DNA from: Ramlibacter rhizophilus | GTDB taxonomy: Bacteria > Pseudomonadota > Gammaproteobacteria > Burkholderiales > Burkholderiaceae_C | NCBI RefSeq assembly: GCF_004681965.1 | Contig: NZ_SMLL01000001.1 | Span: 620,001-684,000, forward strand | Length of the DNA stretch: 64,000 bases | Direction: 5' to 3' | Part shown: positions 6,878 through 63,493 of the stretch, piece after piece | How the letters are laid out: each line of letters begins with the position of its first letter | How positions within the stretch are numbered: the stretch's first letter is position 1 | Translations under genes and position numbers: made by a program | The notes under the pieces: generated by a model | Databases searched by the model: none | Told to the model about the DNA's origin: nothing | What the model saw: only the letters and a program-made list of their open reading frames with translations

Positions 6878-7002
6878 GGGCCGATTATGAGCAGCACGCC
6901 GCCGTGCCGCGCCGGCCTGGACACGCGATGTCGGCGCCCGCCGACCTGGCTGCGCGGCCCATGCGCCTAAGGTGCGTCGATTGTCGAACTCGAGGAGCGC
7001 GC

Positions 7003-7521
7003 ATGTGGTTTGATTCCTGGGAGCAGATCGGCCGCGTCCTGATGGTGGGGCTTGCCGCCTACGCCAGCCTGGTGCTCGTGCTGCGGACCTCCGGCAAGCG
7101 CACCCTCTCCAAGCTCAACGCCTTCGACCTGGTGGTCACCGTGGCCATGGGCTCCACGCTCGCGACCGCGCTGCTGTCCAAGGACGTGGCCTTCGCGGAG
7201 GCGTTGGCGGCCTACATCGTGCTGGCGGGTGGGCAGTGGGTGGTGGCGCGGCTGTCGGTGCGCTCGGCCCGCTTCGCGCACCTCGTGCGCTCGGCGCCAC
7301 GCCTGCTGGTCTACCAGGGACGGCTGCTCGGCGAGGCCCTGGACGACGAGCGGATCACGCACGACGAACTGCTCTCGGCCCTGCGCGCCGGCGGCTTCGG
7401 TCGCGTGGAGGACGCGGCCGCGGTCGTGCTGGAGTCGGACGGCTCCATCAGCGTGCTGGGCACGGCGCCACCCGTGGGCGCGGGGACGCTGCAACGCGTG
7501 GTCCATCCGGCCGAGTCCTGA
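7003..7521 (+). CDS. DUF421/YetF-family membrane protein
   Basis: 172 aa from ATG 7003, chosen because GAGGAG precedes it by 5-6 nt. Longer in-frame starts run back through the divergent PPTase region. Three hydrophobic segments (~7-28, 36-58, 62-80) are followed by the conserved cytoplasmic YcaP/YetF domain (~85-165) with LLVYQGRLLGEALDDERIT and ELLSALRAGGF. The N-terminal RTSGKRTLSKLNAFDLVVTVAMGS is the family signature. The molecular role of the family is poorly defined. It converges with the CDF gene with only 4 nt between the stops. Confidence 0.8.
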   Translation: MWFDSWEQIGRVLMVGLAAYASLVLVLRTSGKRTLSKLNAFDLVVTVAMGSTLATALLSKDVAFAEALAAYIVLAGGQWVVARLSVRSARFAHLVRSAPRLLVYQGRLLGEALDDERITHDELLSALRAGGFGRVEDAAAVVLESDGSISVLGTAPPVGAGTLQRVVHPAES

Positions 7522-7525
7522 GGCA

Positions 7526-8488
7526 TCAATGGGAATGCACTGACCCGTGCCCCCGCGCGTCGAAGCAGTGCGGCTCGTTCGCCTGCGCGCAGGCCGTGCG
7601 TTCCAGCTGGATGGTGCTGTGGTGGATGTGGAAGCGGCTGGCCAGCAGGGCCGACAGGCGCGCGAGCAGCGACTCGTGTGCCGTGCCCTCGGCCATCACC
7701 ACGTGGACGCTCAGGCTGACCGCCGCGGTGCCCAGCGACCAGACGTGCAGTTCGTGCACGCCGCTCACGCCCGGCTCGCGCAGCAGGGCCTGCTCCACCT
7801 CGTCCATCTCGATGTGCTCGGGCGTGCCCTCCAGCAGCACGTGCGTGCTGGCGCGCAGCAGCTGCCAGGAGCGGGGCAGCACCCACAGGCCGATGAGCGC
7901 GGCCACCAGCGGGTCCAGCCACAGCCAGCCGGTGGCGCCGATCAGCAGGGCGGCGACGATGACGCCGACCGAGCCCAGCATGTCGCTCCACACCTCCAGG
8001 TAGGCGCCGCGCAGGTTGAGGTTGTCGTTGCGCCCCGCGTGCAGGATCCACATGCCCGCCAGGTTGGTCAGCAGCCCGAGCACCGCGACGCCCAGCATGG
8101 TGGCCGACTCCACGGGCGGCGGATCGATGGCGCGCGTGACCGCCTCGAACAGGATGTAGGCAGAAGCCAGCAGCAGCAGCACCGCATTGAGCGCGGCGGC
8201 GAGCACTTCGAAGCGGTGGTAGCCGAAGCTGCGCCGCGGGTCGGCAGGGCGCTGCGCCAGGCGCGTGGCCGATAGCGCAATGGCCAGGGCCGCGGCGTCG
8301 GTGAACATGTGCGCCGCATCCGAGAGCAGCGCCAGGCTTCCGGACACCAGCGCCCCGATCAGCTCCGCCACCATCACCGTGCAGGTCAGGGCCAGCACGA
8401 TGGCCAGCCGCGTCGAGGTCGCGCCGCGGGCGTGGTCGTGTGCGTGGCCGTGCCAGTGGCCGGTGTGATCGTGTCCCATCCCCGGCAT
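7526..8488 (-). CDS. Cation diffusion facilitator (CzcD/ZitB-type zinc exporter)
   Basis: Inner-membrane proton-coupled exporter for Zn, Cd or Co. 320 aa. The His-rich N-terminus (HDHTGHWHGHAHDH) is followed by six membrane segments. Metal-site motifs are LLSDAAHMFTDAAAL in TM2 and AYLEVWSDMLGSVGV in TM5. The cytoplasmic C-terminal domain ends in HIHHSTIQLE and a His-containing tail (HCFDARGHGSVHSH). The start is either ATG 8488 or ATG 8479; I took 8488 because a GAG sits just upstream. The frame to 8752 is the complement of the next gene. Confidence 0.9.
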   Translation of the reverse strand: MPGMGHDHTGHWHGHAHDHARGATSTRLAIVLALTCTVMVAELIGALVSGSLALLSDAAHMFTDAAALAIALSATRLAQRPADPRRSFGYHRFEVLAAALNAVLLLLASAYILFEAVTRAIDPPPVESATMLGVAVLGLLTNLAGMWILHAGRNDNLNLRGAYLEVWSDMLGSVGVIVAALLIGATGWLWLDPLVAALIGLWVLPRSWQLLRASTHVLLEGTPEHIEMDEVEQALLREPGVSGVHELHVWSLGTAAVSLSVHVVMAEGTAHESLLARLSALLASRFHIHHSTIQLERTACAQANEPHCFDARGHGSVHSH

Positions 8489-8540
8489 TCTCGGCCAGCA
8501 CGCAGGCGCTGCGGGACGGGCCGGGGCCGCGCTCACTTTC

Positions 8541-9686
8541 TCAGTGGGCGAAGGCGCGCTGCAGGGCCAGGATGTCCGGGGGAGGGCCGATGCCGGGAGC
8601 CGAGCCCAGCAGGCAGCGACCCGCCTCGGCGTCCGAGAACGCCGGGGCGAGCTCGCTGCGCAGCGGGTTGGCGTTCGCATCCACCTCGAGCAGGCCGTCG
8701 CCGCCGGTGGCGGCCAGCAGGTGGGCCGAGTGCAGCAGGCCCACGCCGCCACCCAGGTAATGCGGGCAGAAGCGCCGCCCGGCCGACAGCACCTTCGAGA
8801 TCACGGGCCAGCAGCCGGAGATGCCGCCCCACTTGGCGACGTCCGGCTGGAACACCGTGACGGCGCCCGCGTCGAGCGCCGCGTCGAAGGCCGCGCCGCC
8901 GGCAAGGTTCTCGCCCGCGGCCAGGGGCAGTGGGCAGCCCCGCGCGAGCTGCTGCCATTCGGACCAGGGCCGGTCGGCCCGCAGGGGTTCCTCCAGCCAG
9001 CGCAGGCCGAAGTCGGCGAGCGGCCCGGCCATGGCCAGTGCCTCGTCCAGGTTCCAGGCCTGGTTGGCGTCCACCATGAGTTCGATGCGATCGCCGAAGG
9101 CCTGCCGGATGGTGCGCAGGTTGGCGAGGTCCCGCTCGGTGCCGAAGCCGACCTTCAGCTTGAAGCTGCGATAGCCGTGCGCATGGCGCTGCGCGACCAG
9201 CTGCTCGGGCGCCGTGGGATTGATCCCGCTGGCGTACACCGCCACCTCGCCGCTGCGGCCGCCCAGGTGGGCCCACAGCGGCTGGCCGGCGCGGCGTGCA
9301 CACAGGTCCCACAGGGCCAGGTCGATGGCCGAGATCGCCTGCGCCATCGGACCGGGTTCGCCCGACTGCAGTGCGAGCACCGCCGTGCGTTCGCTGAGCC
9401 AGTCGAAGGCCTGGACGGGGCCGTCGAAATCGCGGGAGGTCAGCAGCGGTGCGAGCACGGTCTCCAGCAGCCGCGCCCGGTGCTCGGCGCCACACGAGGG
9501 GAAGTTGCACCAGGCCTCGCCCCAGCCCTGCGCGCCCTCGCTGTCCTCCACCCGCACGAAGACCGCGGGTCGGTCGTGCATCACCCCGAAGGAGGTCTGC
9601 ACCGGCGTGGCCACCGGCGCGCGCAGGACGAAGGCTTCGAGCCGCGCGATGCGCAGCGCCGCGGACGGCAGGGGAGGCAGGGTCAT
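8541..9686 (-). CDS. Enolase-superfamily (mandelate racemase/muconate lactonizing) enzyme
   Basis: 381 aa. N-terminal capping domain (~10-130), then a modified TIM barrel. Superfamily residues are visible: the catalytic KxK in SFKLKVGFG, metal ligands Asp in LMVDANQAW, Glu in WLEEPLRAD and Glu in LAAGENLAGG, and the FQPDVAKWGGIS strand. The substrate (sugar acid, dipeptide or cycloisomerase type) cannot be fixed. ATG 9686 overlaps the upstream gntR stop by 4 nt, so it is co-expressed with the regulator. This suggests a catabolic role shared with the divergent ABC transporter and GMC oxidoreductase. Confidence 0.85.
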   Translation of the reverse strand: MTLPPLPSAALRIARLEAFVLRAPVATPVQTSFGVMHDRPAVFVRVEDSEGAQGWGEAWCNFPSCGAEHRARLLETVLAPLLTSRDFDGPVQAFDWLSERTAVLALQSGEPGPMAQAISAIDLALWDLCARRAGQPLWAHLGGRSGEVAVYASGINPTAPEQLVAQRHAHGYRSFKLKVGFGTERDLANLRTIRQAFGDRIELMVDANQAWNLDEALAMAGPLADFGLRWLEEPLRADRPWSEWQQLARGCPLPLAAGENLAGGAAFDAALDAGAVTVFQPDVAKWGGISGCWPVISKVLSAGRRFCPHYLGGGVGLLHSAHLLAATGGDGLLEVDANANPLRSELAPAFSDAEAGRCLLGSAPGIGPPPDILALQRAFAH

Positions 9687-10432
9687 GGCTTCAGGTCCAT
9701 CTCGAGTCGGATCGCGTCGCCCCGGTAGACGACGTCGGCAAAGTAGATGACCACGCCATGCCGGTCCTTGAACACCCGCCGCACCTCGGCGGTCGGCGCG
9801 TTCACCGGCACCTCCAGCAGGTGCGCCACTTCGATGTCGGCGGTGCCGATGGTCAGCACCTGGTGCGCCTCGTGGATGTCCACGCCGGGCATCGACACCA
9901 GCAGCGGGATGACCGTGCGGCTGCGAAAGCGGGCGGGCGACTGGCGGAAGATGCGCTCGTCCAGGTAGATGTCGATCACGCAGTAGGGCTGCCCGTCGCG
10001 CAGGTGCACGCGGCGCATGTAGGCATAGCGCGCCGCCGGCGTGCCTTCGGTCAGGGACAGCGGTGGCTCGGTGACGGACTCGTCGATGTTCACCACGCGC
10101 GGCTGGGTGTCCTCGTACACGCGGGCCAGCTCGGCCAGCGTGGTCACCACGTTGATGATGCGCCCGCGCGGCGGCTCGCCGGTCACGAAGGTGCCGCGCC
10201 CGCGCTGGGGTGACAGCAGTCCTTCGCGGGCCAGCAGGTCGATGGCCTGGCGCACCGTGACCCGCGCCACGCCGAACTCTTCCATCAGCACTTCCAGCGA
10301 GGGCAGGCGATGCCCGCGCGGCCACTGCCCCCGGTCGATGCGCGCGCGCATGAGGTCGGCCAGCTGCAGGTAGAGCGGAACGGGGCTGTCCTGGAAACGC
10401 GAGGCTAGGGAAATCGGGGATGTTGCGCGCAC
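9683..10432 (-). CDS. GntR/HutC-family transcriptional regulator with UTRA domain
   Basis: 249 aa from GTG 10432. N-terminal winged HTH (~18-85: LPSLEVLMEEFGVARVTVRQAIDLLAREGLL and the GRGTFV wing). C-terminal UTRA effector domain (~105-245) ends in VVIYFADVVYRGDAIRLEMDL. It leads an operon with the enolase-superfamily enzyme and faces the ABC permease gene across only 23 bp. Autoregulation and control of both sides through the palindrome at 10438-10449 is the obvious model, though inferred. No other convincing start exists, so the mRNA must have a very short or absent leader. Confidence 0.9.
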   Translation of the reverse strand: MRATSPISLASRFQDSPVPLYLQLADLMRARIDRGQWPRGHRLPSLEVLMEEFGVARVTVRQAIDLLAREGLLSPQRGRGTFVTGEPPRGRIINVVTTLAELARVYEDTQPRVVNIDESVTEPPLSLTEGTPAARYAYMRRVHLRDGQPYCVIDIYLDERIFRQSPARFRSRTVIPLLVSMPGVDIHEAHQVLTIGTADIEVAHLLEVPVNAPTAEVRRVFKDRHGVVIYFADVVYRGDAIRLEMDLKP

Positions 10433-10437
10433 GGCGA

Positions 10438-10449
10438 AATAGTACTATT
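10438..10449. promoter_or_regulatory. Perfect 12-bp palindrome, candidate GntR operator in a divergent promoter
   Basis: AATAGTACTATT is a perfect dyad centred between 10443 and 10444, 5 bp from the gntR GTG (10432) and 6 bp from the permease ATG (10456). It is a sharp AT-rich island in GC-rich DNA. Each strand contains TACTAT, a passable -10 box, so bound regulator would block both promoters. GntR regulators typically bind short GT..AC dyads, which this contains (GTAC). Binding is inferred. Confidence 0.55.
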
Positions 10450-10455
10450 GATAGG

Positions 10456-11211
10456 ATGTTAGGTAAACACATGCTTTGGCTGCTCGCGCCCTGGGTGCTG
10501 ATCGTGGCCGTGTGGTATGGCATCCGCGCCAGCGGCTTCGTGGAGCCGGCCCTGGTGCCGGCACCCCACCAGGTGCTGCGCAAGTTCGTCGAACTGTCGC
10601 AGGGTCGCCTCTGGATCGACGTGTGGATGTCCACGCAGCGGGTCTTCATCGGCGTGGCGCTGGGCGTGCTGCTGGCGGTGCCCGTGGGCTTCTGCCTGGG
10701 CTGGTACCGGGGGCTGCGCCGCTTCATGGACCCGGTGATCAACTTCTTCCGCGCGCTGCCGCCCATCGCGCTGATCCCGCTGGTCATCGTGTACTTCGGC
10801 ATCGGCGAGGCGGCCAAGACCGCCATCCTGTTCTACGCCTCCTTCTTCGCCGGCGTCATCGTCATGTACGAGGGCATCGCGCAGATCAGTCCGCTGTTCG
10901 TCAAGGTGGCGCGCACGCTGGGCGCGAACGACATCGAGATCTTCGGCAAGGTCATCGTGCCGCTGACGGTGCCGCACATCCTCACGGCGGTGCGCGTGGC
11001 GCTCGGCGTGGCCTGGGCCACGCTGGTCGCGTCCGAACTCATCGCCGCGCAGCAGGGCCTGGGCGCCCTGATCCAGAACGCCTCGTCCTTCTTCCAGCTG
11101 GACATCATCTACGTGGGCATCATCTGCATCGGCTTCATCGCGCTCGTGATGGACCTGCTCCTGCGGCTGGCCACGCGCCGCCTGGTCGCCTGGCAGGACC
11201 GCATCGCATGA
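10456..11211 (+). CDS. ABC transporter permease (nitrate/sulfonate/taurine, SsuC/TauC type)
   Basis: Inner-membrane subunit of an importer; 251 aa from ATG 10456, with another ATG at 10471. Six predicted membrane segments. The EAA loop contacting the ATPase is seen as ARTLGANDIEIFGKVIVPLTVPHI (~155-180). The family phrase FRALPPIALIPLVIVYFG is present near ~97. The ATG lies 6 bp from the divergent operator, leaving no room for a normal leader or ribosome site, so translation may be leaderless or begin at 10471. Its stop overlaps the ATPase start by 4 nt. Confidence 0.9.
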   Translation: MLGKHMLWLLAPWVLIVAVWYGIRASGFVEPALVPAPHQVLRKFVELSQGRLWIDVWMSTQRVFIGVALGVLLAVPVGFCLGWYRGLRRFMDPVINFFRALPPIALIPLVIVYFGIGEAAKTAILFYASFFAGVIVMYEGIAQISPLFVKVARTLGANDIEIFGKVIVPLTVPHILTAVRVALGVAWATLVASELIAAQQGLGALIQNASSFFQLDIIYVGIICIGFIALVMDLLLRLATRRLVAWQDRIA

Positions 11212-12053
11212 ACGCCATCCCACGCACCGACATGCAGGAAGCCCCGCAGCCTGCGCGCATCCGCTTCGAGAACGTCTCGGTGGACTTCCCGACCGCGCAG
11301 GGCCCCATGCGCGTCATCGACGACATCAGCCTGGACATCGGGCACCGCGAGTTCGTCTCCATCATCGGCCCGTCCGGCTGTGGCAAGACCACGCTGATGA
11401 ACATCCTCGGGGGCTTCGTCGCGCCCACCCGCGGGCGGGTGCTGCTGGATGGCCGGCCCGTCCCGGGGCCCGGCCCCGACCGCGGGGTCATCTTCCAGGA
11501 GTACGGCGTCTTCCCCTGGCTCACCGTGCGGCAGAACATCGAGTTCGGCCTGCGGCTGAAGGCCAACCGCGCCGACGCCGCCGCGCGCGCCGAGGTCACC
11601 GACCGCTACATGCGCCTGATGGGCCTGGCGGACTTCGCGGACCACTTTCCCAAGCACCTGTCCGGCGGCATGCGCCAGCGCCTGGCCATCGCCCGTGCCT
11701 ATGCGGTCAAGCCCGAGTTCCTGCTGATGGACGAGCCCTTCGGCGCCCTGGACGCGCAGACCCGGTCGGCCATGCAGGACCTGCTGCTGGAGGTGCTGCA
11801 GACCGAGAACAAGACGGTGCTCCTCATCACCCACTCGGTGGAGGAGGCCATCTACCTGTCCTCCCGCATCGTCGTGGTCACGGCCAGGCCGGCGCGCATC
11901 CGCACCATCATCGACGTGCCCTTCGGCTACCCGCGCGCAGAGCAGGTGCACGACGACCCGCGCTTCACCGAGCTGCGATCGCACATCCGCGAACTGGTCA
12001 TGCAGGAGTACGCCGCCCAGGCACGCCAGCAGACCGTGCGCCTGTCCGACTGA
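11208..12053 (+). CDS. ABC transporter ATP-binding protein (SsuB/TauB type)
   Basis: 281 aa ATPase driving the importer. Walker A GPSGCGKTT (~56-64), Q-loop FQEYGVFPW, ABC signature LSGGMRQRLAIARA, Walker B FLLMDEPFGALD, H-loop ITHSVEEAIYLSS. The GCGKTT and FGALD forms are typical of the NitT/TauT family, as is the AEQVHDDPRFTELRSHIRELV tail. It overlaps the permease by ATGA; the periplasmic-binding-protein gene follows 42 nt later. Confidence 0.94.
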   Translation: MNAIPRTDMQEAPQPARIRFENVSVDFPTAQGPMRVIDDISLDIGHREFVSIIGPSGCGKTTLMNILGGFVAPTRGRVLLDGRPVPGPGPDRGVIFQEYGVFPWLTVRQNIEFGLRLKANRADAAARAEVTDRYMRLMGLADFADHFPKHLSGGMRQRLAIARAYAVKPEFLLMDEPFGALDAQTRSAMQDLLLEVLQTENKTVLLITHSVEEAIYLSSRIVVVTARPARIRTIIDVPFGYPRAEQVHDDPRFTELRSHIRELVMQEYAAQARQQTVRLSD

Positions 12054-54400: not shown

Positions 54401-55693
54401 TCACTGCATCAGCGAGGGCAGGAAGAGGCTGATCTGCGGAAAGGCGATCAGGATGCCCAGGGTGAGCACCATGGTGAGCACCAGCGGCCAGCAGCCCCGG
54501 AAGATATCGGCCAGGCTCACGCCGGGCAGCAGGGCGTTGAGCACGAAGAGGTTCATGCCCACGGGCGGCGAGATCAGGCCGATCTGCACGATCATCACGA
54601 TCAGCACGCCGAACCACAGCGGATCGAAGCCCAGGCTGGTCACGATGGGGAAGAACAGCGGAATGGTGAGCAGCACCATGGTCAGCTCCTCCATTACCGT
54701 GCCCAGGAGCACGTAGATGCCCATCATGGCCACGATGATCATGGTGGGCGTCAGGCCGCTCTTGGTGATGAAGTCGCGCAGGTCGCCGGGCAGGGTGGTG
54801 AAGTTGACGAAGTTCGCGAACATCGTGGCGGCAATCAGCAGCGTGAACAGCATGGCCGTAGTGCGCGCGGACTCCACCAGCACCTGGAACAGGATGGGCC
54901 AGGTGAGGCGCCCACGCAGCAGCGCGAACAGGAAGGCGCCCGCAGCGCCGAAGCCCGCCCCCTCGGTGGCGGTGAAGAAGCCTCCGTAGATGCCGCCCAG
55001 CACCACGATGACCAGCACCACCACGCCCCAGATGCCGCGCAGCGCGCGCCAACGCTCGGACCAGGAGTGGCGTTTGCCGGGCGGTGCGTGCTCCGGGTCG
55101 CGCAGGGTGATGATCCACACGGCCAGCATCAGCATGCTTGCCGTCAGCAGGCCAGGCAACACCCCGGCGGCGAACAGCTTGCCGATGTTGGTCTCGGTGA
55201 TGATCCCGTAGATCACCAGGATGGTGGAGGGCGGGATCATGATGCCCAGCGTGCCGCCGGCGGCCATGACGCCGGTGGACAGCGAGTTGCTGTAGCCCAG
55301 GTCGCGCATGGAGGGATAGGCCACCTTGCTCATGGTGGCGGCCGTGGCGATGGACGAGCCGCAGATCGCACCGAAGCCGGCGCAGGCGGCGATGGTCGCG
55401 TGGGCCAGGCCGCCGCGCAGGTGGCCGATGAAGGCATAGGCGGCCTGGAACAGCTCGTGCGCCAGGCCCGCGCGGGCGACGAAGTTGCCCATGAGGATGA
55501 ACAGGGGGATGACCGACAGCGTGTAGGCGAAGCCGGTCTCGTAGACCACCTGCGAGGTGCTGGCCAGCGCCGGCACCCAGCCGCGCGTGAGGCCCACGCC
55601 CAGGAAACCGACGATGCCCATGGCGAAGGCCAGGGGGATGCGCATCAGCGCCAGCAGGAAGATGGCACCGAAGCCGAGCAGGGATTCGATCAC
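54401..55693 (-). CDS. dctM: TRAP transporter large permease (DctM)
   Basis: 430 aa with 12 or more hydrophobic segments, the DctM/ion-transporter superfamily. Family phrases: GFGAIFLLALMRIPLAFAMGIVGFLGVG, PLFILMGNFVARAGLAHELFQAAYAFIGHLRGGLAHATI, ICGSSIATAATMSKVAYPSM, and PPVGMNLFVLNALLPG near the end. GTG 55693 overlaps the dctQ stop (GTGA). Together with DctQ and DctP it imports an organic acid with sodium or protons. The operon context suggests an aromatic or acyl acid. Confidence 0.93.
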   Translation of the reverse strand: MIESLLGFGAIFLLALMRIPLAFAMGIVGFLGVGLTRGWVPALASTSQVVYETGFAYTLSVIPLFILMGNFVARAGLAHELFQAAYAFIGHLRGGLAHATIAACAGFGAICGSSIATAATMSKVAYPSMRDLGYSNSLSTGVMAAGGTLGIMIPPSTILVIYGIITETNIGKLFAAGVLPGLLTASMLMLAVWIITLRDPEHAPPGKRHSWSERWRALRGIWGVVVLVIVVLGGIYGGFFTATEGAGFGAAGAFLFALLRGRLTWPILFQVLVESARTTAMLFTLLIAATMFANFVNFTTLPGDLRDFITKSGLTPTMIIVAMMGIYVLLGTVMEELTMVLLTIPLFFPIVTSLGFDPLWFGVLIVMIVQIGLISPPVGMNLFVLNALLPGVSLADIFRGCWPLVLTMVLTLGILIAFPQISLFLPSLMQ

Positions 55694-56178
55694 AGCGCGG
55701 TCCCCTCACGCGGCTCTTCGCCGTGCTGCACGCGCCAGCGCATCAGGGCTAGGTGCACCAGCCCCGCGAGGGCGCACATCACGCCCATGCCGTAGATGAA
55801 GGGGTACTTGGGAATCTGCAGCTGCGCGGTGGTCTCGCCGAAGCTCGCGAAGTCGCCGCCGGTGCGCCACATCAGCCAGCCCAGGGCGAGCAGTCCCACG
55901 CCGACCAGCGCGTTCACCAGCACCTGCTGCAGCGTGCGCACCCAGCGGGGCAGGTACGGGTCGAGGGAGTCGAACTCCACATGCTCGCCGCGCAGGGACA
56001 CCAGCGGAAGGGCCGCGAAGATCACCACCACCATGAGCAGTTCGGTCAGCTCCAGCGAGCCGGGAATGGAGCGCGAGACGAACTTGCGTCCCAGCACGTC
56101 GAAGAAGGTCAGGGCCATGATCGCGAACAGCGCGATCCCCGAGAGCAGCCCGCACAGGAGCTCCAGCAGCTTTTTCAA
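55690..56178 (-). CDS. dctQ: TRAP transporter small permease (DctQ)
   Basis: 162 aa, four hydrophobic segments (~9-30, 48-66, 86-106, 128-146), usual DctQ size. TTG 56178 is the start, supported by GGAG 7 nt upstream. Family motifs: FDVLGRKFVSRSIPGSLELTELLMVVVIFAALPL and RGEHVEFDSLDPYLPRW. It assembles with DctM. Overlap of 4 nt with dctM gives tight coupling. Confidence 0.88.
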   Translation of the reverse strand: MKKLLELLCGLLSGIALFAIMALTFFDVLGRKFVSRSIPGSLELTELLMVVVIFAALPLVSLRGEHVEFDSLDPYLPRWVRTLQQVLVNALVGVGLLALGWLMWRTGGDFASFGETTAQLQIPKYPFIYGMGVMCALAGLVHLALMRWRVQHGEEPREGTAL

Positions 56179-56221
56179 GTCGTTCTCCGTCCTTCTCCGT
56201 GATCCCTTGGGGGTGCATGCG

Positions 56222-56256
56222 AACGCGGCTTCCGGGCAGGGCCCGCAAGCCGCGTT
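56222..56256. other. 10-bp stem hairpin between dctP and dctQ
   Basis: AACGCGGCTT (56222-56231) and AAGCCGCGTT (56247-56256) pair perfectly around a 15-nt loop in the 132-bp gap. On the minus strand it comes after dctP and before dctQM. It could partly stop or stabilise the message so that the binding protein outnumbers the permeases. Confidence 0.5.
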
Positions 56257-56310
56257 TGTATCAGGTCGCGTGCGGCGCCGGCCCTCCCCGGTGCCGCACG
56301 GGCGCGTGCC

Positions 56311-57330
56311 TTACTTGGACTGCTTGGCGATCTCGGCGCGGAAGTCCGCCAGCACCTTCTCGGCGTTCTTCAGGCCCTTGCCCTCGGCTTCCTTGGCCCA
56401 GCGCTCCTCCAGGGCCTTGGTGCGCGACTTGACGTCGCCCACCAGCTTCTGGTCGGCCTTGATCACCTGCACCTTGTTGGCTTCCATGCTCTTCATGGCG
56501 GCCTGGTCCACGCGGTCCCAGTGCTTGCCGATCAGGCGTGCGGCCACCTCGCCGGAAGCGTCGTCCACCGCCTTCTTCTCCTCGGGGCTGAGCTTGTCGT
56601 ACTTGGCCGGGTTCATCATGAAGACGAAGCTCGTGTTGTAGAGGCCCCCGGGGAAGGTCGTGGCATGCTTGATCAGCGGACCGAGCTTGAAGGACTCGAT
56701 GGATTCGGCCGGGAACAGCGTGCCGTCCATGACGCCGCCGGACAGCAACTCATAGGACTCGGGCGCGGGCTTGAGCGTGACGTTCATGCCCAGGGTCTTG
56801 GAGATCTCGTTGACCATGCCGCCGCCCACGCGCCACTTCAGGCCCTGCAGGTCTTCCAGCTTGGTGACCGGCCGCTTGGTGTTGAAGACGATGCCGGGCC
56901 CGTGGGTGAAGAAGGCGAGCACCTTCACGCCCTCGTGCTCCTTGAGGAACTCCGGGTGCTGCATGGCGACCTTGTTGAAGGCCACGGACATGGGCTCGGC
57001 CGCGTCGCCCAGGAAGGGGAACTCGGCCATCTGCGTGAGCGTGAAGCGGCCCGGCGTGTAGCCGTGCACCGTGAACGACACGTCGGCCAGGCCGTTCTTG
57101 ATCGCGTCGAAGGTGCCGGGGGGCGCGGCCACCGCGCGGGGCAGGTGGTTGCACTTGATCTTGTTCTTGCTGTTCTTTTCCACCAGGTCGCACCACTCCT
57201 TCTGGGCGACGGTGAGCGCGTGCGTGGGCGGCACCCAGCTCGAGGTGGTCAGGACGGTCTGGGCGCCGGCGGGCGCTGAGACGGCGAACACGGCGGCCGT
57301 GGCCGCGAGGGAAAACAGGGAACGTTTCAT
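56311..57330 (-). CDS. dctP: TRAP transporter substrate-binding protein (DctP)
   Basis: 339 aa periplasmic receptor. Signal peptide MKRSLFSLAATAAVFAVSAPAGAQT. Mature part with TRAP features: GLADVSFTVHGYTPGRFTL, EFPFLGD, HGPGIVFNTKRPVTKLEDLQGLKWRVGGGMVNEISKTLGMNVTLKP and the Arg of LKWRVGG, which usually holds the ligand carboxylate. Ends with AEKVLADFRAEIAKQSK. GGAG lies 9 nt before ATG 57330. The first TRAP gene, 107 bp after the SDR gene, so it may share the catabolic transcript or have its own promoter. Confidence 0.92.
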   Translation of the reverse strand: MKRSLFSLAATAAVFAVSAPAGAQTVLTTSSWVPPTHALTVAQKEWCDLVEKNSKNKIKCNHLPRAVAAPPGTFDAIKNGLADVSFTVHGYTPGRFTLTQMAEFPFLGDAAEPMSVAFNKVAMQHPEFLKEHEGVKVLAFFTHGPGIVFNTKRPVTKLEDLQGLKWRVGGGMVNEISKTLGMNVTLKPAPESYELLSGGVMDGTLFPAESIESFKLGPLIKHATTFPGGLYNTSFVFMMNPAKYDKLSPEEKKAVDDASGEVAARLIGKHWDRVDQAAMKSMEANKVQVIKADQKLVGDVKSRTKALEERWAKEAEGKGLKNAEKVLADFRAEIAKQSK

Positions 57331-57437: not shown

Positions 57438-58166
57438 TCACAGCGACAGGCTCCCGATGCTCGCGCCACCGCAGACGTACAGCGCCTGTCCGGTGACGAA
57501 GCCCGCGTCGGGGTGGGTGAAGAAGCTCACGGCACGCGCCACGTCGGCCGGCTCGCCGAGGCGGCCCACCGGGATGGCCGCGGCCAGGCGGCTCTCGCGC
57601 TCGCTGCCGGCCGGAATGACGTCGTGGAACATGCCCGTGCGCACCGGTCCCGGGGCCACCGCATTCACGGTGATGCCGTCGGCCGCCAGCTCCAAGGCCC
57701 AGGTACGCGCCAGGCCCAGCAGGCCGGCCTTGGTGGCCGCATAGCTGGTCCGCGTGGGCGTGCCCAGCGCCGCGCGCGAGGACATGAGCACGATGCGTCC
57801 GAAACGCGCGGCGCGCATGCCCGGCAGCACCGCCTGCACGAGCTGGATGGCCGCGCCCAGGTGGAGCTCGACCAGCGTGTCCAGGTCGTCGAGCTTCACC
57901 TCGGACAACAGGGCGGGACGGATGAGGCCGGCGTTGTGCACCAGCGTGGTGACATTGAAATCCTGCGCCAGCGACTGCGCGGCGCGTGCCGTGGCCGCGC
58001 GGTCGGACAGGTCCACCCGCCGCTCGTGCAGCTTCGGGTGCCGCAGCGTGCCGGGCTCGCGGTCCAGCGACACCACCTCGCAGCCTTCGGCCAGCAACGC
58101 TTCGCAGACCGCGCGGCCGATGCCGGCGCTGCCGCCCGTCACCGCTGCGACACGGTGGCCGCTCAT
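57438..58166 (-). CDS. Short-chain dehydrogenase/reductase
   Basis: 242 aa classical SDR with intact sites: cofactor TGGSAGIGRA (~10-19), NNAG-type VHNAGLIRP, catalytic Ser in IVLMSSRAALG (~130s) and YAATK (Tyr/Lys, ~148-152), PGPVRTGMFHD. An Asp-Arg after the second strand (SLDREPG) favours NAD over NADP. Likely oxidises or reduces an intermediate of the dioxygenase pathway. Start ATG 58166 overlaps the cyclase stop by 4 nt. Confidence 0.92.
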   Translation of the reverse strand: MSGHRVAAVTGGSAGIGRAVCEALLAEGCEVVSLDREPGTLRHPKLHERRVDLSDRAATARAAQSLAQDFNVTTLVHNAGLIRPALLSEVKLDDLDTLVELHLGAAIQLVQAVLPGMRAARFGRIVLMSSRAALGTPTRTSYAATKAGLLGLARTWALELAADGITVNAVAPGPVRTGMFHDVIPAGSERESRLAAAIPVGRLGEPADVARAVSFFTHPDAGFVTGQALYVCGGASIGSLSL

Positions 58167-58966
58167 GCCGCGTCCTCGACCAGCGCCAGCACGCGCAGCG
58201 GGCTGCCGCTGCCTTTCTGGATCTTCAGCGGCGGGCAGACCAGCAGCGCGCCGGTCGGCGGCAGCTGGTCCAGGTTGGCCAGACACTGCAGCCCGTAGCG
58301 GCCCGCGCCGTGCATGTAGTAGTGGCAGGGGTAGGGCGGGCGCAGGTGGTAGCCCTGGCCGGCGTCGGTGCCGATGGCCTCGGAGCCGAAGCCCAGCACC
58401 TGGCGCTCGTCGATGAGGAACTTCACCGCTTCGGTGCTCGGGCCCGGCGTGTGCTGGCCGGTCTCGTCGAAGTTCTGGTAGGCCTCGGGGTCGCTGCGCT
58501 TGGACCAGTCCGTTCGCATCAGGAACCAGCTGCCCGGGGCGATGCGGCCATGCGCCTGCTCGAAGCGTTCGATGTCCTCCACCGTGAGCAGGTAGTCGGG
58601 GTCGGCCTGCGCTTCGCGCGAGCAGTCGACGACCACGGCCGGTGCCACGAAGTGCTGCACCGGGATGGTGTCCACGGCATTGTTCGGCAGGTTGCGACCG
58701 GAGATCCAGTGGATCGGCGCGTCGAAGTGCGTGCCCGTGTGCTCGCCGCAGGAGAAGTTGTTCCAGTACCAGCCGGGCCCGCGCTCGTCGTAGGCCGAGA
58801 CCTCCTCGATGCGGAAGGGCCAGCATTGGCCCATCTCGGGGGGCAGCGCGATCTGCGGGAACTCGGGCGTGAGCGTCTGCGTGAGATCGACCACGCGGAT
58901 GCGGCCGCTGGACAGGGCCGCGGCGACGCTCGCCAGCAGCGACAGGGACGACGAAGTCGCAGACAT
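58163..58966 (-). CDS. Cyclase family protein (KynB-like metal hydrolase fold)
   Basis: 267 aa. The metal-binding motif HTGTHFDAPIH (~92-102, in SCGEHTGTHFDAPIHWISG) is complete. Cyclase-family enzymes include kynurenine formamidase and open or close rings by hydrolysis. Further family phrases: RVVDLTQTLTPEFPQI and ALLVCPPLKIQKGSGSPLRVLALV. ATG 58966 has GGAGG 9 nt upstream. Kynurenine is only one option; with a ring dioxygenase upstream, a lactone or amide product is possible. Confidence 0.87.
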   Translation of the reverse strand: MSATSSSLSLLASVAAALSSGRIRVVDLTQTLTPEFPQIALPPEMGQCWPFRIEEVSAYDERGPGWYWNNFSCGEHTGTHFDAPIHWISGRNLPNNAVDTIPVQHFVAPAVVVDCSREAQADPDYLLTVEDIERFEQAHGRIAPGSWFLMRTDWSKRSDPEAYQNFDETGQHTPGPSTEAVKFLIDERQVLGFGSEAIGTDAGQGYHLRPPYPCHYYMHGAGRYGLQCLANLDQLPPTGALLVCPPLKIQKGSGSPLRVLALVEDAA

Positions 58967-58967
58967 C

Positions 58968-60221
58968 TCAGCTTCCTCCGCTGGCCAGCTCGCGCTCCAG
59001 CACCTTGGGGTTGTCACGCCAGCGCTCCAGCCACTCCTGCGCCACCTCGCCGGGGTAGACGTCCTCGATGCCTTCCTTGAGCGCCTTGACGATGGCCGTG
59101 GCCAGGGCCGCCGGTGCCACCTTCGGCGGCGGCAGGTTCTGGTTCCACTCGTCGTCGATCGGACCGGGGAACACGTTGATCACGCGGATGCCCGCCGGCC
59201 GCATCTCCGCGCGCAGGCACTGGGCGAGCGACAGCGCCGCCGCCTTGGAGGCGGAGAAGGTGCCGTGCGGCGGGTAGTTGGACAGGGCGTAGACCGACAG
59301 CAGGTTGACCCAGGCGGCCGCGTGCGCCATGCCGTCGGCCGAGCGCGCGCGCAGGGCCGGCCCGAACTCCTGCGCCAGGCGCAGCAGGCCGAAGTAGTTG
59401 ATGTCCATCTCGGCCTTGGCCACGTCGGTGCCGCGGCGCGAGGCGATGCCGAAGGCGCGGTGCACCTCGGCGTTGTTGATCACGATGTCCACCTTGCCGC
59501 CGATCTCGCCGGCCAGCTCGCTCACCTGGCGTCCGTTGCTCAGGTCCAGCGGCACCAGCGTGACCTGGGGCAGGCGCGTGATGTCGTCCAGGCCCGGCAG
59601 CTTCTTCCAGGGCTCGGCGTGGCCCACCCACACGATCTCGGCGCCGGCCTTCACCAGCGCCTGCACCAGCGCCTGCCCGACGGCGCTCTTGCCGTCGGTG
59701 ACCAGCACCTTGCGAAAGCGCGGATCGCTGGTCATCTCGCGCAGCATTCGGTCGTCTGCCATGTGTTCGCTTCCTTGTTCCGGAAATCCGATGAGGACGG
59801 CCTGTCCCGCCCGGTCCAGGCGGGCGCCGACATGCACGCGCGTGGGCGCCTCGCCCACCTCCCCGTGCAGGTGGACCATGACCGAGCAGCCCACGTCCAG
59901 TTCCACCAGCCCCAGCCGCCAGGGCAGGCGCTCGCGGAAGAACAGGTCGTTGCTGTGGTGCAGGGTGGTGGAGGCGAGGAGCTGGCCTGCGCCCGTCTGC
60001 GGCCGCCACTTCAGCTGGGACGACAGGCAGCGGTGGCACGCTTCGCGGGGCGGGTACTGCACGGCCTGGCATTCCTGGCAAACCTGCAGCGCAAGGTGTC
60101 CTTCGGCCGCGGCCGCGGTCATGCCCAGCGCCACGCGGCCGCGCGCCCAGGGCGGCAGGTTCATCTGCCGGGTGCGCAGGACCGGGTTCTTGCGCTTGGG
60201 CTTCATCAGCGGCATGGTCAT
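58968..60221 (-). CDS. DUF35 zinc-ribbon/OB-fold protein fused to a degenerate SDR domain
   Basis: 417 aa. Residues ~40-150 are a DUF35 acyl-CoA-associated OB-fold with a zinc ribbon: CQEC (Cys48, Cys51) and CHRC (Cys62, Cys65). Residues ~170-410 are an SDR fold, but its sites are eroded. The cofactor loop reads TDGKSAVG (175-182), NNAG is NNAE (249-252), and the YxxxK motif is FSASK (Phe322, Lys326), so the catalytic Tyr is gone. Codon 154 is an in-frame ATG (59762) with AAGGA 9 nt upstream, exactly at the domain junction. A separate SDR product, or a recently lost stop codon, is possible. Overlaps the thiolase stop by 4 nt. Confidence 0.85.
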   Translation of the reverse strand: MTMPLMKPKRKNPVLRTRQMNLPPWARGRVALGMTAAAAEGHLALQVCQECQAVQYPPREACHRCLSSQLKWRPQTGAGQLLASTTLHHSNDLFFRERLPWRLGLVELDVGCSVMVHLHGEVGEAPTRVHVGARLDRAGQAVLIGFPEQGSEHMADDRMLREMTSDPRFRKVLVTDGKSAVGQALVQALVKAGAEIVWVGHAEPWKKLPGLDDITRLPQVTLVPLDLSNGRQVSELAGEIGGKVDIVINNAEVHRAFGIASRRGTDVAKAEMDINYFGLLRLAQEFGPALRARSADGMAHAAAWVNLLSVYALSNYPPHGTFSASKAAALSLAQCLRAEMRPAGIRVINVFPGPIDDEWNQNLPPPKVAPAALATAIVKALKEGIEDVYPGEVAQEWLERWRDNPKVLERELASGGS

Positions 60222-61387
60222 GCGGATCTCCCGAGCAGCACGGCGCCGGTGCACAGGCACCGGTCGTAGGTGACCATGCCGAAGCCCGTCACCAGGCCCA
60301 GTTGCGCCTCGGGCACGCTGCGTTCGCCCGCCTGGCCCGTGAGCTGGCGGATGGTCTCCGTCATGCCGATGAAGCCGCCGGCCGCACCCGCCTGTCCGCA
60401 GGACAGCTGGCCGCCGCTGGTGTTGTTGGGAAAGCTGCCATCGAAGCGCGTGTCCTGCGCGCGCACGAAGGCGGGGCCTTCGCCCTTCTCGCAGAAGCCC
60501 AGGTCCTCGAACTGGATCATCACGATCACGGGGTAGTCGTCATAGGTCTGGATGAAGTCCACGTCCTCGGGCCGGGCGCCGGCCTGGGCATACAGGTCTT
60601 CGCGGTCCACCAGCCAGCCGCCGCGCACCATCACCGGGTCGTCGGCGAAGGCGTTGTGCCGCTCGATGGCCCCGCGCAGCAGCGCGTGCGGCAGGCCCAG
60701 CTCGCGCGCGCGCTCCTCGCGCATCACCAGGAAGGCCTCGGCCCCTGCGCAAGGCATCACGCAGTCGAAGAGGTGGATGGGGTCCGAGATGGGCCGGGCG
60801 GCCATGTACTCGTCCAGCGTGAGCGGCTTCTTGAAGAGGGCGTTGGGGTTCTTCAGGGCATTGGCGCGCTGGGCCACCGCGATGCGCCCGAAGTCCTCGC
60901 GCGTGGCGCCGAACTGCCGCATGTAGTTGGCCATGATCATGGCGAAGATGGAGTTCGGCCCGCCCGAGCCGTAGGGGTAGCTCGCGTCCCGCGCGAAGCC
61001 GCTGAAGGAGCCGAGCATCTGGCGGAAGGAGTCCACGTGGTTGGTGTCCGCCGCCACGCAGGCCACGATGTCGGCGTCGCCGGCCTGCACCGCGCGCGCC
61101 GCGCGGCGCAGCGCCATCACGCCGCTCGCGCCGCCGGTGGGCACGTGGTCCAGCCAGCGTGGCGACACCCCCAGGTGCTGGGTCACGCCCACGGCGGTGT
61201 CCGGCGCGAGCGAGAAGCTGCTGATGGTCAGGCCGTCGATCTGGGCCTTGTCCAGGCCCGAGGCGTCCAGCAGCGCCCGCAGCGCCTGGCCGATGAACCA
61301 GTGCGCGCCGTGCGTGGAGTAGCGCACGTAAGGCACCGTGACGGGCACCGCCACGGCAACGCCCTCGTAGGACTGGCGCCGCTTCAT
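60218..61387 (-). CDS. Thiolase-fold protein (SCP2/Ltp2-like) lacking the catalytic Cys
   Basis: 389 aa. The fold is clear: HVPTGGASGVMALRRAARAVQAGDAD (~81-106) and PNNTSGGQLSCGQAGAAGGFIG (~320-341). But the nucleophile position of the usual ACATG is Gly86 (TGGASG), and the classic SxGHPxG His is Gln332. SCP2-like IQTYDDYPVIVMIQFEDLGFCEKGEG (~279-304) supplies Tyr282 and Tyr285. This pattern is that of Ltp2-type retro-aldolases rather than thiolases. The DUF35 partner is the next gene. ATG 61387 chosen; the frame to 61426 overlaps the ligase. Confidence 0.85.
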   Translation of the reverse strand: MKRRQSYEGVAVAVPVTVPYVRYSTHGAHWFIGQALRALLDASGLDKAQIDGLTISSFSLAPDTAVGVTQHLGVSPRWLDHVPTGGASGVMALRRAARAVQAGDADIVACVAADTNHVDSFRQMLGSFSGFARDASYPYGSGGPNSIFAMIMANYMRQFGATREDFGRIAVAQRANALKNPNALFKKPLTLDEYMAARPISDPIHLFDCVMPCAGAEAFLVMREERARELGLPHALLRGAIERHNAFADDPVMVRGGWLVDREDLYAQAGARPEDVDFIQTYDDYPVIVMIQFEDLGFCEKGEGPAFVRAQDTRFDGSFPNNTSGGQLSCGQAGAAGGFIGMTETIRQLTGQAGERSVPEAQLGLVTGFGMVTYDRCLCTGAVLLGRSA

Positions 61388-63003
61388 GCTGATTGCCTCT
61401 TCTTGAGGGCACGCGTGTCGATGCAAACCTCCGTTCCCGGCAGCGTGCGGGCCAGCTCGCGCAGCTGCGCGCGCTGGATCTTCTGCGACAGGGTCAGCGG
61501 CACCGCGTCCACGAAGGCCACATAACCCGGCGCCTTGTAGTAGGCCAGCTGCGCCAGCGCGTGCCGAACGATGCTTTCGGCCAACGCCGCGCGCTCGCCC
61601 GCCGCAACCGGCTCGCGCAGGATGATGCAGGCCAGCACCTCGTCCCCGCGCACCTCGTCGGGCGCGGCCGCGACGGCGGCGCTGCGCACGGCGGGGTGCT
61701 GGTTCAGCACGCTCTCCACCTCCACCGCCGAGATGTTCTCGCCGCTGCGGCGGATCACGTTCTTCTTGCGGTCCACGAAGTACAGGTGCCCGGTGTCATC
61801 CCGTCGCACCATGTCCCCGGTGTGGAACCAGCCGCCGTCCCAGGCCGCTTCGGTCGCAGCCTCGTCCTTGAGGTAGCCGCTGAAGAAGTGGCGGCGCGGG
61901 TCGTCGCCACGCGCGCGCACCCACAGCTCGCCGGGAACGCCGTCCGGCACGGGGGCGCCGTCCTCGTCCACCAGGCGCACCTCGACGAAATCCTCGGGTG
62001 CGCCGAAGCAGCTCGTGCCCACGTGGCGCGGTTCGTGGTTGGCCATGATGCAGGCGGCGGCGCCGGTCTCCGTCATGGCCCAGGCCTCCACCAGGGGAAA
62101 GCCGAACCGCTCCTCGAACACCGCATGGTGCCGCTTGTCCACGCCGGCCCCGAAGCCCCAGCGCACCGCGTGCGCCCGGTCCTCGGGCGAAGGCGGCGCG
62201 GACAGCAGCATGGCCGGCATCACGCCGAGGTAATGCACGATGGTCGCGCGCGCCTCGCGCACGCTGCGCCACCAGCTCGTCGGGTGGAAGCGGTCCAACT
62301 GGACGAGGCAACCACCGGCGGTGACGACCACCATGGTGGAGAAGGCCATCGCGTTCACGTGGTTCAGCGGCAGCGGCGTGATCACGCGCTCCTGGTCGGG
62401 CCGCACCGAGCAGACGCCGTCCAGCGCGGCGTACCAGTCGCCGGCGCGCAGGAAGTAGGCATTGGACAGGCGGCATCCTTTGGGCCGGCCGGTGGTGCCC
62501 GAGGTGTAGAGGAGGGCGCACTCGCTGTCCGGCCCGGGCGGGGCCGCTTCGGGCGCCGCGCGCGGGGCCGGCGGCGGCGTGTCTTCGCCGTCCCACAGCG
62601 CCATGGGCACGCCGGCCGCCTCGGCGGCCCGGCGCAGGTCGCCGCCGCGCGCGGGCAGCGTGACCGCGAGCGCGATTTCGCTGTGGCCGACCAAATACTC
62701 GAGTTCGGCCGACCGCATCTCGGCGTTGACCGGCACCACGCTCGCGCCCAGCGCATTGAGCGCGAACCAGTGGAACAGGAAGGCCGGCCGGTTCTCCAGC
62801 AGAAGCCCGACGCGGTGCCCGTGCCCGTAGCCGGCTTCGGCATAGGCCTGGCGCAGCCGCTGCACTTCGGCGGCGGCGTCGCTCCAGCTCACGGGGCCAG
62901 GCTCGATGCCGTACACCTCGGCGGCCACGGCATCGACGAAGAGGAAGTCGGCGCCGGGCGTGCGCGCGGCGGTGGCGAGAAAGCGCTGGGCGACCGTGCT
63001 CAT
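61384..63003 (-). CDS. Class I adenylate-forming acyl-CoA ligase
   Basis: 539 aa AMP-dependent synthetase/ligase. Core motifs A3 LLYTSGTTGRPKGC (~165-178), A5 AWAMTETGAAACIM (~310-325), A8 DTGHLYFVDRKKNVIRRSGENIS (~407-430) and the C-terminal Lys in LSQKIQRAQLR. Makes a CoA ester from an acid, starting the side-chain or ring route. Substrate unknown; the operon suggests an aryl or alkyl acid. Start ATG 63003; 7 nt after the dioxygenase beta gene, and overlaps the thiolase by 4 nt. Confidence 0.92.
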   Translation of the reverse strand: MSTVAQRFLATAARTPGADFLFVDAVAAEVYGIEPGPVSWSDAAAEVQRLRQAYAEAGYGHGHRVGLLLENRPAFLFHWFALNALGASVVPVNAEMRSAELEYLVGHSEIALAVTLPARGGDLRRAAEAAGVPMALWDGEDTPPPAPRAAPEAAPPGPDSECALLYTSGTTGRPKGCRLSNAYFLRAGDWYAALDGVCSVRPDQERVITPLPLNHVNAMAFSTMVVVTAGGCLVQLDRFHPTSWWRSVREARATIVHYLGVMPAMLLSAPPSPEDRAHAVRWGFGAGVDKRHHAVFEERFGFPLVEAWAMTETGAAACIMANHEPRHVGTSCFGAPEDFVEVRLVDEDGAPVPDGVPGELWVRARGDDPRRHFFSGYLKDEAATEAAWDGGWFHTGDMVRRDDTGHLYFVDRKKNVIRRSGENISAVEVESVLNQHPAVRSAAVAAAPDEVRGDEVLACIILREPVAAGERAALAESIVRHALAQLAYYKAPGYVAFVDAVPLTLSQKIQRAQLRELARTLPGTEVCIDTRALKKRQSA

Positions 63004-63010: not shown

Positions 63011-63493
63011 TCAGATGAACAGCTGCACCGGCGGCAGCGCGGCGTCCGGATTGAGCAGGTTGACCCGCTTGAGCGTCATGCGCAGAGCACCGTCCTCCAC
63101 CGTGAGGTGGTGGAAGAAGGTGCCCACGAGGAACTGCACCGTGTCGTGCTGGCTCTCGGTGTAGTGGAACTCGGTGCGCACCACATAGCGGTTCGCCTCG
63201 GGCTCGTAACTTTCCACCGTGGGCACCTGCAGCAGGTGGTGGCAGCGGCTGGGCGGCTGCTGCGAGAACGCACGCGGGCTCTTCAGGCGGGCGATGCGCA
63301 GCTCGCGCAGCAGCTTGTCTTCGTACAGGTGCGAGGTGTGCTCCCGGCCGTCGGGCTGGTCGGGCACCAGGGGAACCCAGTAGATGGCATCCCGGGTGAA
63401 CAGGGCGTTCCACTCCTCGTAGCGGCCGGCATCGAGCAGGCGGCACTCGCGGACGACGAAGTCGATCAGGTCCTGGCGGGTGATGTCGGTCAT
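63011..63493 (-). CDS. Aromatic-ring-hydroxylating dioxygenase beta subunit
   Basis: 160 aa, normal for the SnoaL/NTF2-like beta subunits. N-terminus DLIDFVVRECRLLDAGRYEEWNALFTRDAIYWVPLVPDQPDG is a family signature, and YVVRTEFHYTESQHDTVQFLVGTFFHHLTVEDGALRMTLKRVNL ends the sheet. It supports the alpha subunit structurally. The ATG overlaps the alpha stop by 4 nt. Confidence 0.93.
   Translation of the reverse strand: MTDITRQDLIDFVVRECRLLDAGRYEEWNALFTRDAIYWVPLVPDQPDGREHTSHLYEDKLLRELRIARLKSPRAFSQQPPSRCHHLLQVPTVESYEPEANRYVVRTEFHYTESQHDTVQFLVGTFFHHLTVEDGALRMTLKRVNLLNPDAALPPVQLFI

Follow-up and report, generated by a model that had tools for sequence, protein, structure and literature searches.

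What reaction is catalyzed by a thiolase-fold protein that lacks the nucleophilic Cys of thiolases, and what is the role of its neighbor, a DUF35 domain fused to a degenerate SDR domain? These questions are raised by two genes on the minus strand of a 64,000-nucleotide stretch of the Ramlibacter rhizophilus genome (contig NZ_SMLL01000001.1, positions 620,001 to 684,000; hereafter, the window). The first gene (60218..61387) encodes the Cys-less thiolase-fold protein, of 389 amino acids, and the second (58968..60221) encodes the fusion, of 417 amino acids, whose DUF35 part consists of a zinc ribbon and an OB fold. They are iadG and iadH of the iad cluster for the degradation of auxin (indole-3-acetic acid). 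Judging from comparisons of sequence and gene context, it is quite likely that IadG and the DUF35 part of IadH perform a retro-aldol cleavage of dioxindole-3-acetyl-coenzyme A (CoA) to isatin and acetyl-CoA, in which the SDR part would be non-redox. The genes themselves were already known, as were DUF35-dependent thiolase-fold aldolases for steroids. What would be new is the aromatic substrate, the Asp at the position of the catalytic Cys of the aldolase Sal and the fusion to a degenerate SDR domain.

The identity of the operon follows from three matches, which are the oxygenase, a MarR protein and an isatin hydrolase. The genes iadD, iadE, iadF, iadG, iadH, iadI and iadJ occur together in the window and the stretch upstream of it. 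For IadD, the matches are the IadDE structure from Variovorax paradoxus CL014 (9O71; E-value 5.4e-251) and 7yls (1.5e-248). The MarR protein matches MarR_73 (7KFO; 9.8e-61), and it is identical to MarR_73 in six of the seven residues that contact indole-3-acetic acid, the seventh being changed from Val to Ile. The “cyclase” IadI matches isatin hydrolases 5nmp, 5nnb, 5nna and 4j0n with E-values from 7.8e-110 to 1.4e-82, versus merely 7.8e-4 for kynurenine formamidase. Its metal motif, HxG[T/A]HxDxPxH, is present as HTGTHFDAPIH. In Labrenzia sp. THAF187b, the gene directly 3′ of the fusion encodes a protein with 5 differences from isatin hydrolase A over 257 residues, as counted by hand in the printed alignment. 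Isatin hydrolase A, to which this protein of an iad-type cluster is nearly identical, was crystallized with its product isatinate, and its hydrolase activity is published.

A preliminary description of this locus cited as precedent the aldolase Ltp2, which acts on steroid side chains. We set aside a steroid substrate by analogy to Ltp2 in view of the neighbors, namely IadD, the MarR_73-type regulator and isatin hydrolase. The assignment to a known operon goes beyond that description, and the substrate is probably dioxindole-3-acetyl-CoA.

The operon has been studied genetically in Variovorax, and a 2025 preprint on that work reports that iadF, iadG, iadH and iadI are required for anthranilate formation (PMC12633357). 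Deletion of any of these four genes raises the level of C10H9NO4, which was taken to be dioxindole-3-acetic acid (DOAA), and deletion of iadG significantly lowers anthranilate (PMC12633357). The alike effect of the iadG and iadH deletions fits a single enzyme with two parts. The labels in the preprint come from annotation; they make IadG a ketothiolase, IadH an alcohol dehydrogenase and IadI possibly a broad amidase. A compound of formula C8H7NO3 was also detected and shown to be different from N-formylanthranilate (PMC12633357). In Pseudomonas LY1, C8H7NO3 is reported as isatinic acid (PMC8383072), and isatin is reported from V. paradoxus CL14 (PMC9613470).

In the pathway that we propose, the oxygenase IadDE and the dehydrogenase IadJ would convert auxin to DOAA, and IadF would convert DOAA to its CoA thioester. 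IadG, clamped by the zinc-ribbon/OB part of IadH, would then act on this thioester, with Tyr282 deprotonating the tertiary hydroxyl at C3. Detaching the acetyl-CoA arm from C3 would yield isatin and an enolate, and the enolate would be protonated, probably with help from Asp284, to give acetyl-CoA. IadI would hydrolyze isatin to isatinate, en route to anthranilate. The degenerate SDR part of IadH would have no redox role; it is probably a later addition that serves a structural role. A retro-aldol reaction would balance without redox chemistry, in that C10H9NO4 equals isatin (C8H5NO2) plus C2H4O2, and isatin plus water would give C8H7NO3, the formula detected in the Variovorax study (PMC12633357). 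Claisen thiolysis of DOAA-CoA would be unavailable because the β carbon carries a tertiary alcohol and no ketone.

The residues of IadG bear on this reaction. At the position of the thiolase nucleophile, IadG has Gly86 (codon 61130..61132, minus strand). Downstream are a Y282-D-D-Y285 motif (60533..60544) and the segment from Gln327 to Gln332 (60392..60409), both likewise on the minus strand. The aligned sites in the Cys-containing thiolases that we sampled are Cys, HDC, Leu and the His of the HP motif. In a Sal-type protein (L159; E-value 7.1e-256 to Sal, 9MYR), they are Gly89, Y302-D-C304, Gln347 and Gln352, numbered as in the Sal paper. The preliminary description had placed Gly86 at the Cys position and Gln332 at the HP His; both positions hold, and homologues agree with them. 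By alignment, the Gln in place of the His is a feature common to IadG and Sal. Tyr282 and Tyr285, which had been called SCP2-like, are indeed present, but the comparison to SCP2 does not stand for Tyr282. All 11 Cys-containing thiolases sampled have His-Asp-Cys-Phe at this site, and a Tyr there is found in the aldolases Sal (YDCY) and Ltp2 (YDHF).

By sequence, IadG is a thiolase-fold protein, in which Pfam finds Thiolase_C_1 above the cut-off (E-value 1.6e-36) and Thiolase_N slightly below it. It has none of the features of an SCP2-type thiolase (a nucleophilic Cys, HDCF and GHP), and its YDDY and GQ stand where the 11 Cys-thiolases sampled have HDCF and GHP. The Tyr that serves as catalytic base in Sal and Ltp2 is present. 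The general acid, which is Cys304 in Sal and Tyr344 in Ltp2, is replaced by Asp284 and Gln332, respectively, and because this residue differs, we do not class IadG as either Sal or Ltp2.

These residues are highly conserved. Identical sequences were merged before counting, which gave 97 distinct fusions and 96 distinct thiolase-like proteins; 94 loci contain 88 distinct fusions. Thiolase-like sequences are missing from this set for L040, L057 and L114 (shorter than 370 amino acids) and for L075, L076 and L125 (the contig begins in or just before the gene). Gly86, YDDY, Gln327 and Gln332 occur all together in 94 of the 96 homologues, while the remaining two differ solely by having YDDF, so that the Tyr of the motif is found in 96/96. 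The preliminary description had raised the possibility that a shifted frame would reveal a Cys in the active site, and we found none aligned there in the 96 homologues. Two of them (L156 and L177) have a Cys one or two residues past the Gly86 site, off the aligned position. A sequencing error or frame slip that hides a Cys is ruled out by the agreement of the homologues. At the end of an Azospirillum thermophilum plasmid (L040, 2910-4082 and upstream), the first part of the thiolase-like frame looks broken; position 86 is Arg, the frame looks shifted there, and the thiolase-like and fusion genes are both missing from the gene table.

We inferred a tree from 45 sequences, which comprise 20 of the 96 homologues and 25 more distant ones; a partial Ltp2-like sequence (L143) was left out. 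The 18 YDDY proteins form one clade (100/100), which is joined by a YDDF clade and then by the Sal-type sequence (96/95). The 11 Cys-thiolases lie across a 100/100 branch from the side with IadG and Sal. By tree and residues, the nearest characterized enzyme appears to be the Sal-type bile-acid aldolase. According to the Sal paper, activity requires both Tyr302 and Cys304, and the Gly is argued there to rule out thiolysis. An AlphaFold model of IadG (mean predicted local distance difference test, pLDDT, 40.7; 26 sequences, all close relatives) was too poor and was not used. The same genome has a second thiolase-like gene (L005:9002-10596; C7:409001-410595) with GGCS, YDDF and GQPG, as well as a stand-alone DUF35 gene. 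This stretch also has Rieske-oxygenase-like and acyl-CoA ligase genes, and its thiolase-like gene falls into the sister clade of IadG.

The partner, IadH, has its DUF35 part at residues 36-136 (59814..60116) and its SDR part at residues 171-372 (59106..59711), both on the minus strand, and Pfam finds zf-ChsH2, OB_ChsH2_C and adh_short within its single frame. A zinc-ribbon/OB partner is thus encoded beside the thiolase-like gene, as in known aldolases of this type. The zinc ribbon with Cys48, Cys51, Cys62 and Cys65 (60027..60080, minus strand), which the preliminary description had pointed out, is borne out by its conservation, with all four Cys kept in 97/97 distinct fusions. In a Foldseek search with a model of IadH, the best non-SDR structures among the 50 matches listed are 6ok1_B (TMt 0.70) and 9myr_B (TMt 0.71), which are both partners of aldolases. 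The model has a mean pLDDT of 62.3 and is trustworthy mainly in the DUF35 part, and we used Foldseek for the DUF35 match and the SDR family only. The partner is not a hydratase; it is fused to an SDR domain, and there is no MaoC match among the 7 operon proteins scanned with Pfam, a set from which iadD, dctQ and dctM were left out.

The SDR part of IadH does not have the classical set of TGxxxGxG with Ser, Tyr and Lys. The loss of the catalytic Tyr (F322-S-A-S-K326) and of the TGxxxGxG loop, already noted in the preliminary description, is confirmed, and across the family the complete active site occurs in 0/97 distinct fusions, the first Gly of the loop in 0/97, and Tyr together with Lys in 3/97. 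Considered singly, Tyr is present in 7, Lys in 83 and the third Gly in 90 of the 97. Six fusions on alphaproteobacterial plasmids lack the Lys, having FDASQ, FSASN (twice), HSASQ, VSVSH and YSVSQ, the last of which (L040) retains the Tyr despite losing the Lys. As a control, IadJ is an SDR in the same operon whose motifs are intact (TGGSAGIG and YAATK). An active SDR is rejected for the fusions examined. It is possible that the fusions that keep the third Gly (90/97) bind a cofactor.

A stand-alone DUF35 protein of roughly 150 amino acids, with no fused SDR domain, accompanies two early-branching YDDY relatives of IadG (L157 and L158). Stand-alone DUF35 proteins also occur in three loci of the YDDF clade (L005, L177 and L178). 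Those of L157, L158, L177 and L178 are not counted among the 97 fusions. The L157 locus (4402-11282) is an iad-like cluster from the same class with oxygenase, ligase and iadJ genes, and we did not find an isatin hydrolase match within 14 kb. Given L157 and L158, DUF35 is the constant partner, and the SDR domain looks like a later addition. It is also possible that the SDR domain was lost in L157 and L158, as support for the branching above L157 is weak (81/91).

A scan of genome contigs, of the kind that the preliminary description had suggested for DUF35-SDR fusions, found 154 relatives of the fusion. Since only the best 80 of the 154 were kept as named loci, these lean to close relatives. 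By a hand count of record titles, 44 of the 80 loci are from Variovorax, and others are from Ramlibacter, Pseudacidovorax, Xenophilus and Burkholderiales bins. One is from Variovorax Root473, in which auxin is reported to induce the iad-like operon (PMC11630574). In 79 of the 80 loci, the fusion is immediately preceded by thiolase sequence, including two loci that are cut by a contig end; in L075, the contig starts 105 bases upstream of the fusion. The genes iadD, iadF, iadG, iadI and iadJ are near the fusion in 64/80 loci by a strict distance rule. This rule missed genes in six loci (e.g., the thiolase of L064), which were recovered by tblastn to give 70/80. Among the remaining 10, 8 are interrupted by contig ends, and L112 and L115 are incomplete.

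Gene order is identical on plasmids of Sulfitobacter, Labrenzia and Roseibium. A plasmid of Shinella sp. PSBB067 (L044, 6201-11045) carries a group of four genes (for the ligase, the thiolase-like protein, the fusion and the cyclase) with neither the oxygenase nor iadJ among them; this four-gene set is possibly a stand-alone cassette from DOAA to isatinate. In the same genus as the window, 8 of 36 genomes have a full-length fusion, with 74-88% identity. IadG is not common: it has a match at an E-value of at most 1e-70 in 10 of 398 genomes (an even sample of the phylum that includes the window genome), and two of these matches are merely 39% identical. Downstream of iadJ, some loci (e.g., L108 from Variovorax) have a second oxygenase α/β pair, and this exact order is seen in 56/94 loci. 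In five loci, the second pair is 57-59% and 43-46% identical to the window genes.

The existing annotation implies another reaction, in which IadG is a ketothiolase that uses free CoA to cleave a β-keto thioester such as 2-formamidobenzoylacetyl-CoA. This reaction would follow an older route for B. japonicum, in which 2-formamino-benzoyl-acetic acid was postulated (Egebo 1991, as cited in PMC8383072). The free acid, 2-formamidobenzoylacetic acid, is an isomer of DOAA, the label of ketothiolase is used in PMC12633357, and automatic names for IadG are acetyl-CoA acetyltransferase and lipid-transfer models of NCBIfam, although all 23 listed are below their cut-offs. However, IadG has no Cys at the nucleophile site and none of the accompanying motifs, and the next gene after the fusion is a relative of isatin hydrolase. 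In deuterium labeling, C10H9NO4 loses one label of seven and the downstream compounds retain four, and C8H7NO3 is not N-formylanthranilate (PMC12633357). This pattern would indicate DOAA, as the formamido route should retain the deuterium at C2. We reject an ordinary ketothiolase on the absent Cys, the motifs, the tree and the chemistry, and regard cleavage of a β-keto thioester by IadG as improbable. It is more improbable still that IadG hydrolyzes or decarboxylates DOAA-CoA or a related thioester, or transfers its acyl group, while the C-C bond is cut by something else. A thiolase-like protein of trypanosomes is reported to be a slow malonyl-CoA decarboxylase (cited in the Sal paper), and the Asp of YDDY has no characterized precedent among the literature examined. 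By contrast, the recurring genes iadD to iadJ contain no other candidate for a C-C lyase, deletion of iadG significantly lowers anthranilate (PMC12633357), and IadG groups with Sal.

A third alternative is that IadH is an active dehydrogenase and the side chain is removed reductively to give dioxindole (C8H7NO2), which IadI would then handle. C8H7NO2, which is isatin plus 2 H, accumulates both when iadI is mutated and when the genes are expressed in a strain with iadI left out, and PMC12633357 reads it as the product of reductive side-chain removal. Dioxindole is reported from cultures of V. paradoxus CL14 (PMC9613470) and in an older pathway (PMC8383072). A subset of fusions keeps individual SDR residues, and in 5u4s, the nearest relative of the SDR part with a solved structure, the Tyr is likewise absent although the structure contains NADP. 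Moreover, the SDR part shows the higher conservation of the two, with a mean identity to the window protein of 83.4% against 75.1% for the DUF35 part (94 rows), so the SDR part does something. On the other hand, no fusion has the full set of SDR residues, DUF35 stands alone beside both YDDY and YDDF proteins, and the operon already has a normal SDR in IadJ. In addition, hydrolyzed dioxindole would be C8H9NO3, while the reported formula is C8H7NO3 (PMC12633357), i.e., isatin plus water. Thus, we consider an active dehydrogenase unlikely. Under retro-aldol cleavage, C8H7NO2 would have to be isatin reduced to dioxindole off the pathway by another enzyme.

The buildup of C8H7NO2 is the chief finding that weighs against the proposed retro-aldol cleavage with a passive SDR part; the conservation of the SDR part and the NADP of 5u4s also weigh against it, and so do several further observations. 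At the L112 locus, the 9 kb downstream contain neither isatin hydrolase nor iadJ, and at L115 the 9 kb upstream contain neither ligase nor oxygenase. In the tree, the Sal-type sequence sits on a long branch, a kind of placement that the tree tool flags as unsure. In Sal, changing Cys304 to Ala, Ser or His is reported to abolish activity, and IadG carries Asp at this position. The oxyanion-hole residues Gln161 and Gly391 of Sal correspond to Pro144 and Met371 in IadG. Given the Asp and the different oxyanion residues, the acid step in IadG remains a proposal.

The alignment, the tree and the gene context favor the suggestion, made in the preliminary description, that this locus encodes an aldolase linked to DUF35, with an SDR scaffold that is non-catalytic; this support is purely comparative. 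On balance, IadG and IadH are probably the missing C-C lyase of the aerobic iad route for auxin. Among DUF35-dependent retro-aldolases of the thiolase fold, they would represent a third kind, with an aromatic N-heterocycle as substrate, an Asp in place of the Cys of Sal and a DUF35 partner that has acquired a conserved pseudoenzyme SDR domain. The sister YDDF clade would then consist of further aldolases.

The side-chain removal step has so far been assigned by annotation alone, to a type of enzyme that is unable to act on the proposed intermediate. The names iadG and iadH appear in PMC12633357 and in PMC10374108, in the latter among cloning methods. In the open-access literature (as distinct from subscription journals and supplementary files), we found no description of IadG as an aldolase, and the main texts of PMC12633357 and PMC11630574 do not use the word “aldolase” at all. 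If our proposal is true, every gene from iadD to iadJ gets a chemically balanced role, and isatin is predicted as a metabolite. Genes that are now named thiolase or SDR would be re-labeled, and the steroid-aldolase type would extend to aromatic compounds. Bacteria with the iad operon are reported to shield roots from an excess of auxin, and engineering of such bacteria for plant growth promotion is under way (PMC12633357).

We now note the other genes of the locus, all of which lie on the minus strand except for the MarR gene, which is divergent and lies directly upstream of iadD. The oxygenase large subunit gene, iadD (63490..64833), runs past the window end at 64000 and corresponds to L003:5991-7334; iadE (63011..63493) encodes the small subunit of this Rieske oxygenase. 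An AMP-forming acyl-CoA ligase is encoded by iadF (61384..63003), which we named by its order and its role in PMC12633357. Downstream of iadH are the isatin hydrolase gene iadI (58163..59017), whose real start is probably an ATG near 58966, and the SDR gene iadJ (57438..58166). The operon is tightly packed, with 4-base overlaps at iadD/iadE, iadF/iadG, iadG/iadH and iadI/iadJ. The reductase gene iadC is not beside iadD here, where the MarR gene occupies the spot directly upstream (L003:5991-7946), so the electron donor must come from elsewhere in this genome. In V. paradoxus, iadC is reported to be dispensable for degradation (PMC12633357).

TRAP transporter genes dctP, dctQ and dctM (54401..57330) lie 3′ of iadJ and are a possible uptake system. 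We named dctP by Pfam, and dctQ and dctM by the appearance of their open reading frames and by matches in L156. The iad clusters of Sulfitobacter, Labrenzia, Roseibium and L156 have TRAP genes nearby as well, but the window TRAP proteins have zero matches in 8 iad loci of the same genus. Given that Variovorax is reported to have an ABC binding protein (PMC12633357), the TRAP genes of the window may encode a TRAP-type auxin importer.

One of the closest known systems is that of V. paradoxus CL014, in which homologues of iadG and iadH occur in the same order. In four V. paradoxus loci, none of which is CL014, the orthologues are 82-85% identical for the thiolase-like protein and 82-84% for the fusion. 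CL014 differs in the printed labels of ketothiolase and alcohol dehydrogenase, and the locus in the window differs in that iadC is not beside iadD and the TRAP transporter follows iadJ. For the SDR part, the nearest solved structure is the Burkholderia cenocepacia short-chain dehydrogenase 5u4s, which has LSASK without the catalytic Tyr. However, 5u4s has no DUF35, keeps the Gly-rich loop as TGADRGLG and contains NADP in the structure.

The benzoylsuccinyl-CoA thiolase BbsAB (PDB 7PXP) also pairs a thiolase-fold subunit with a DUF35 zinc-finger subunit. By contrast with IadG, BbsB retains the Cys and has HDAF. BbsCD, which also functions in toluene degradation, has a catalytically dead SDR subunit as a separate protein, a parallel to the pseudo-SDR part of IadH.

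Ltp2 with the DUF35 domain of ChsH2 (PDB 6OK1) is a retro-aldolase with the Tyr of the YD motif and a DUF35 partner. It differs from IadG in having YDHF instead of YDDY, in its acid Tyr344, which is Gln in IadG, and in the hydratase to which its partner belongs. Its substrate is likewise a tertiary alcohol on a ring that becomes a ring ketone.

The strongest resemblance is to Sal with the DUF35 domain of Shy from Comamonas testosteroni (PDB 9MYR). Both IadG and Sal are Cys-less thiolase-fold proteins with a zinc-ribbon/OB partner; Gly89, Tyr302, Gln347 and Gln352 of Sal are all matched in IadG, and the two share a side of the tree (96/95, with one long-branched row). IadG departs from Sal in Asp284, at the place of the essential Cys304, and in Pro144 and Met371 at the oxyanion residues. 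The partners also differ, in that Shy is fused to a MaoC hydratase and has a Cys3His1 zinc site, whereas IadH is fused to a degenerate SDR domain and has a Cys4 site. Finally, the substrate of Sal is a steroid, and the predicted substrate of IadG is an indole.

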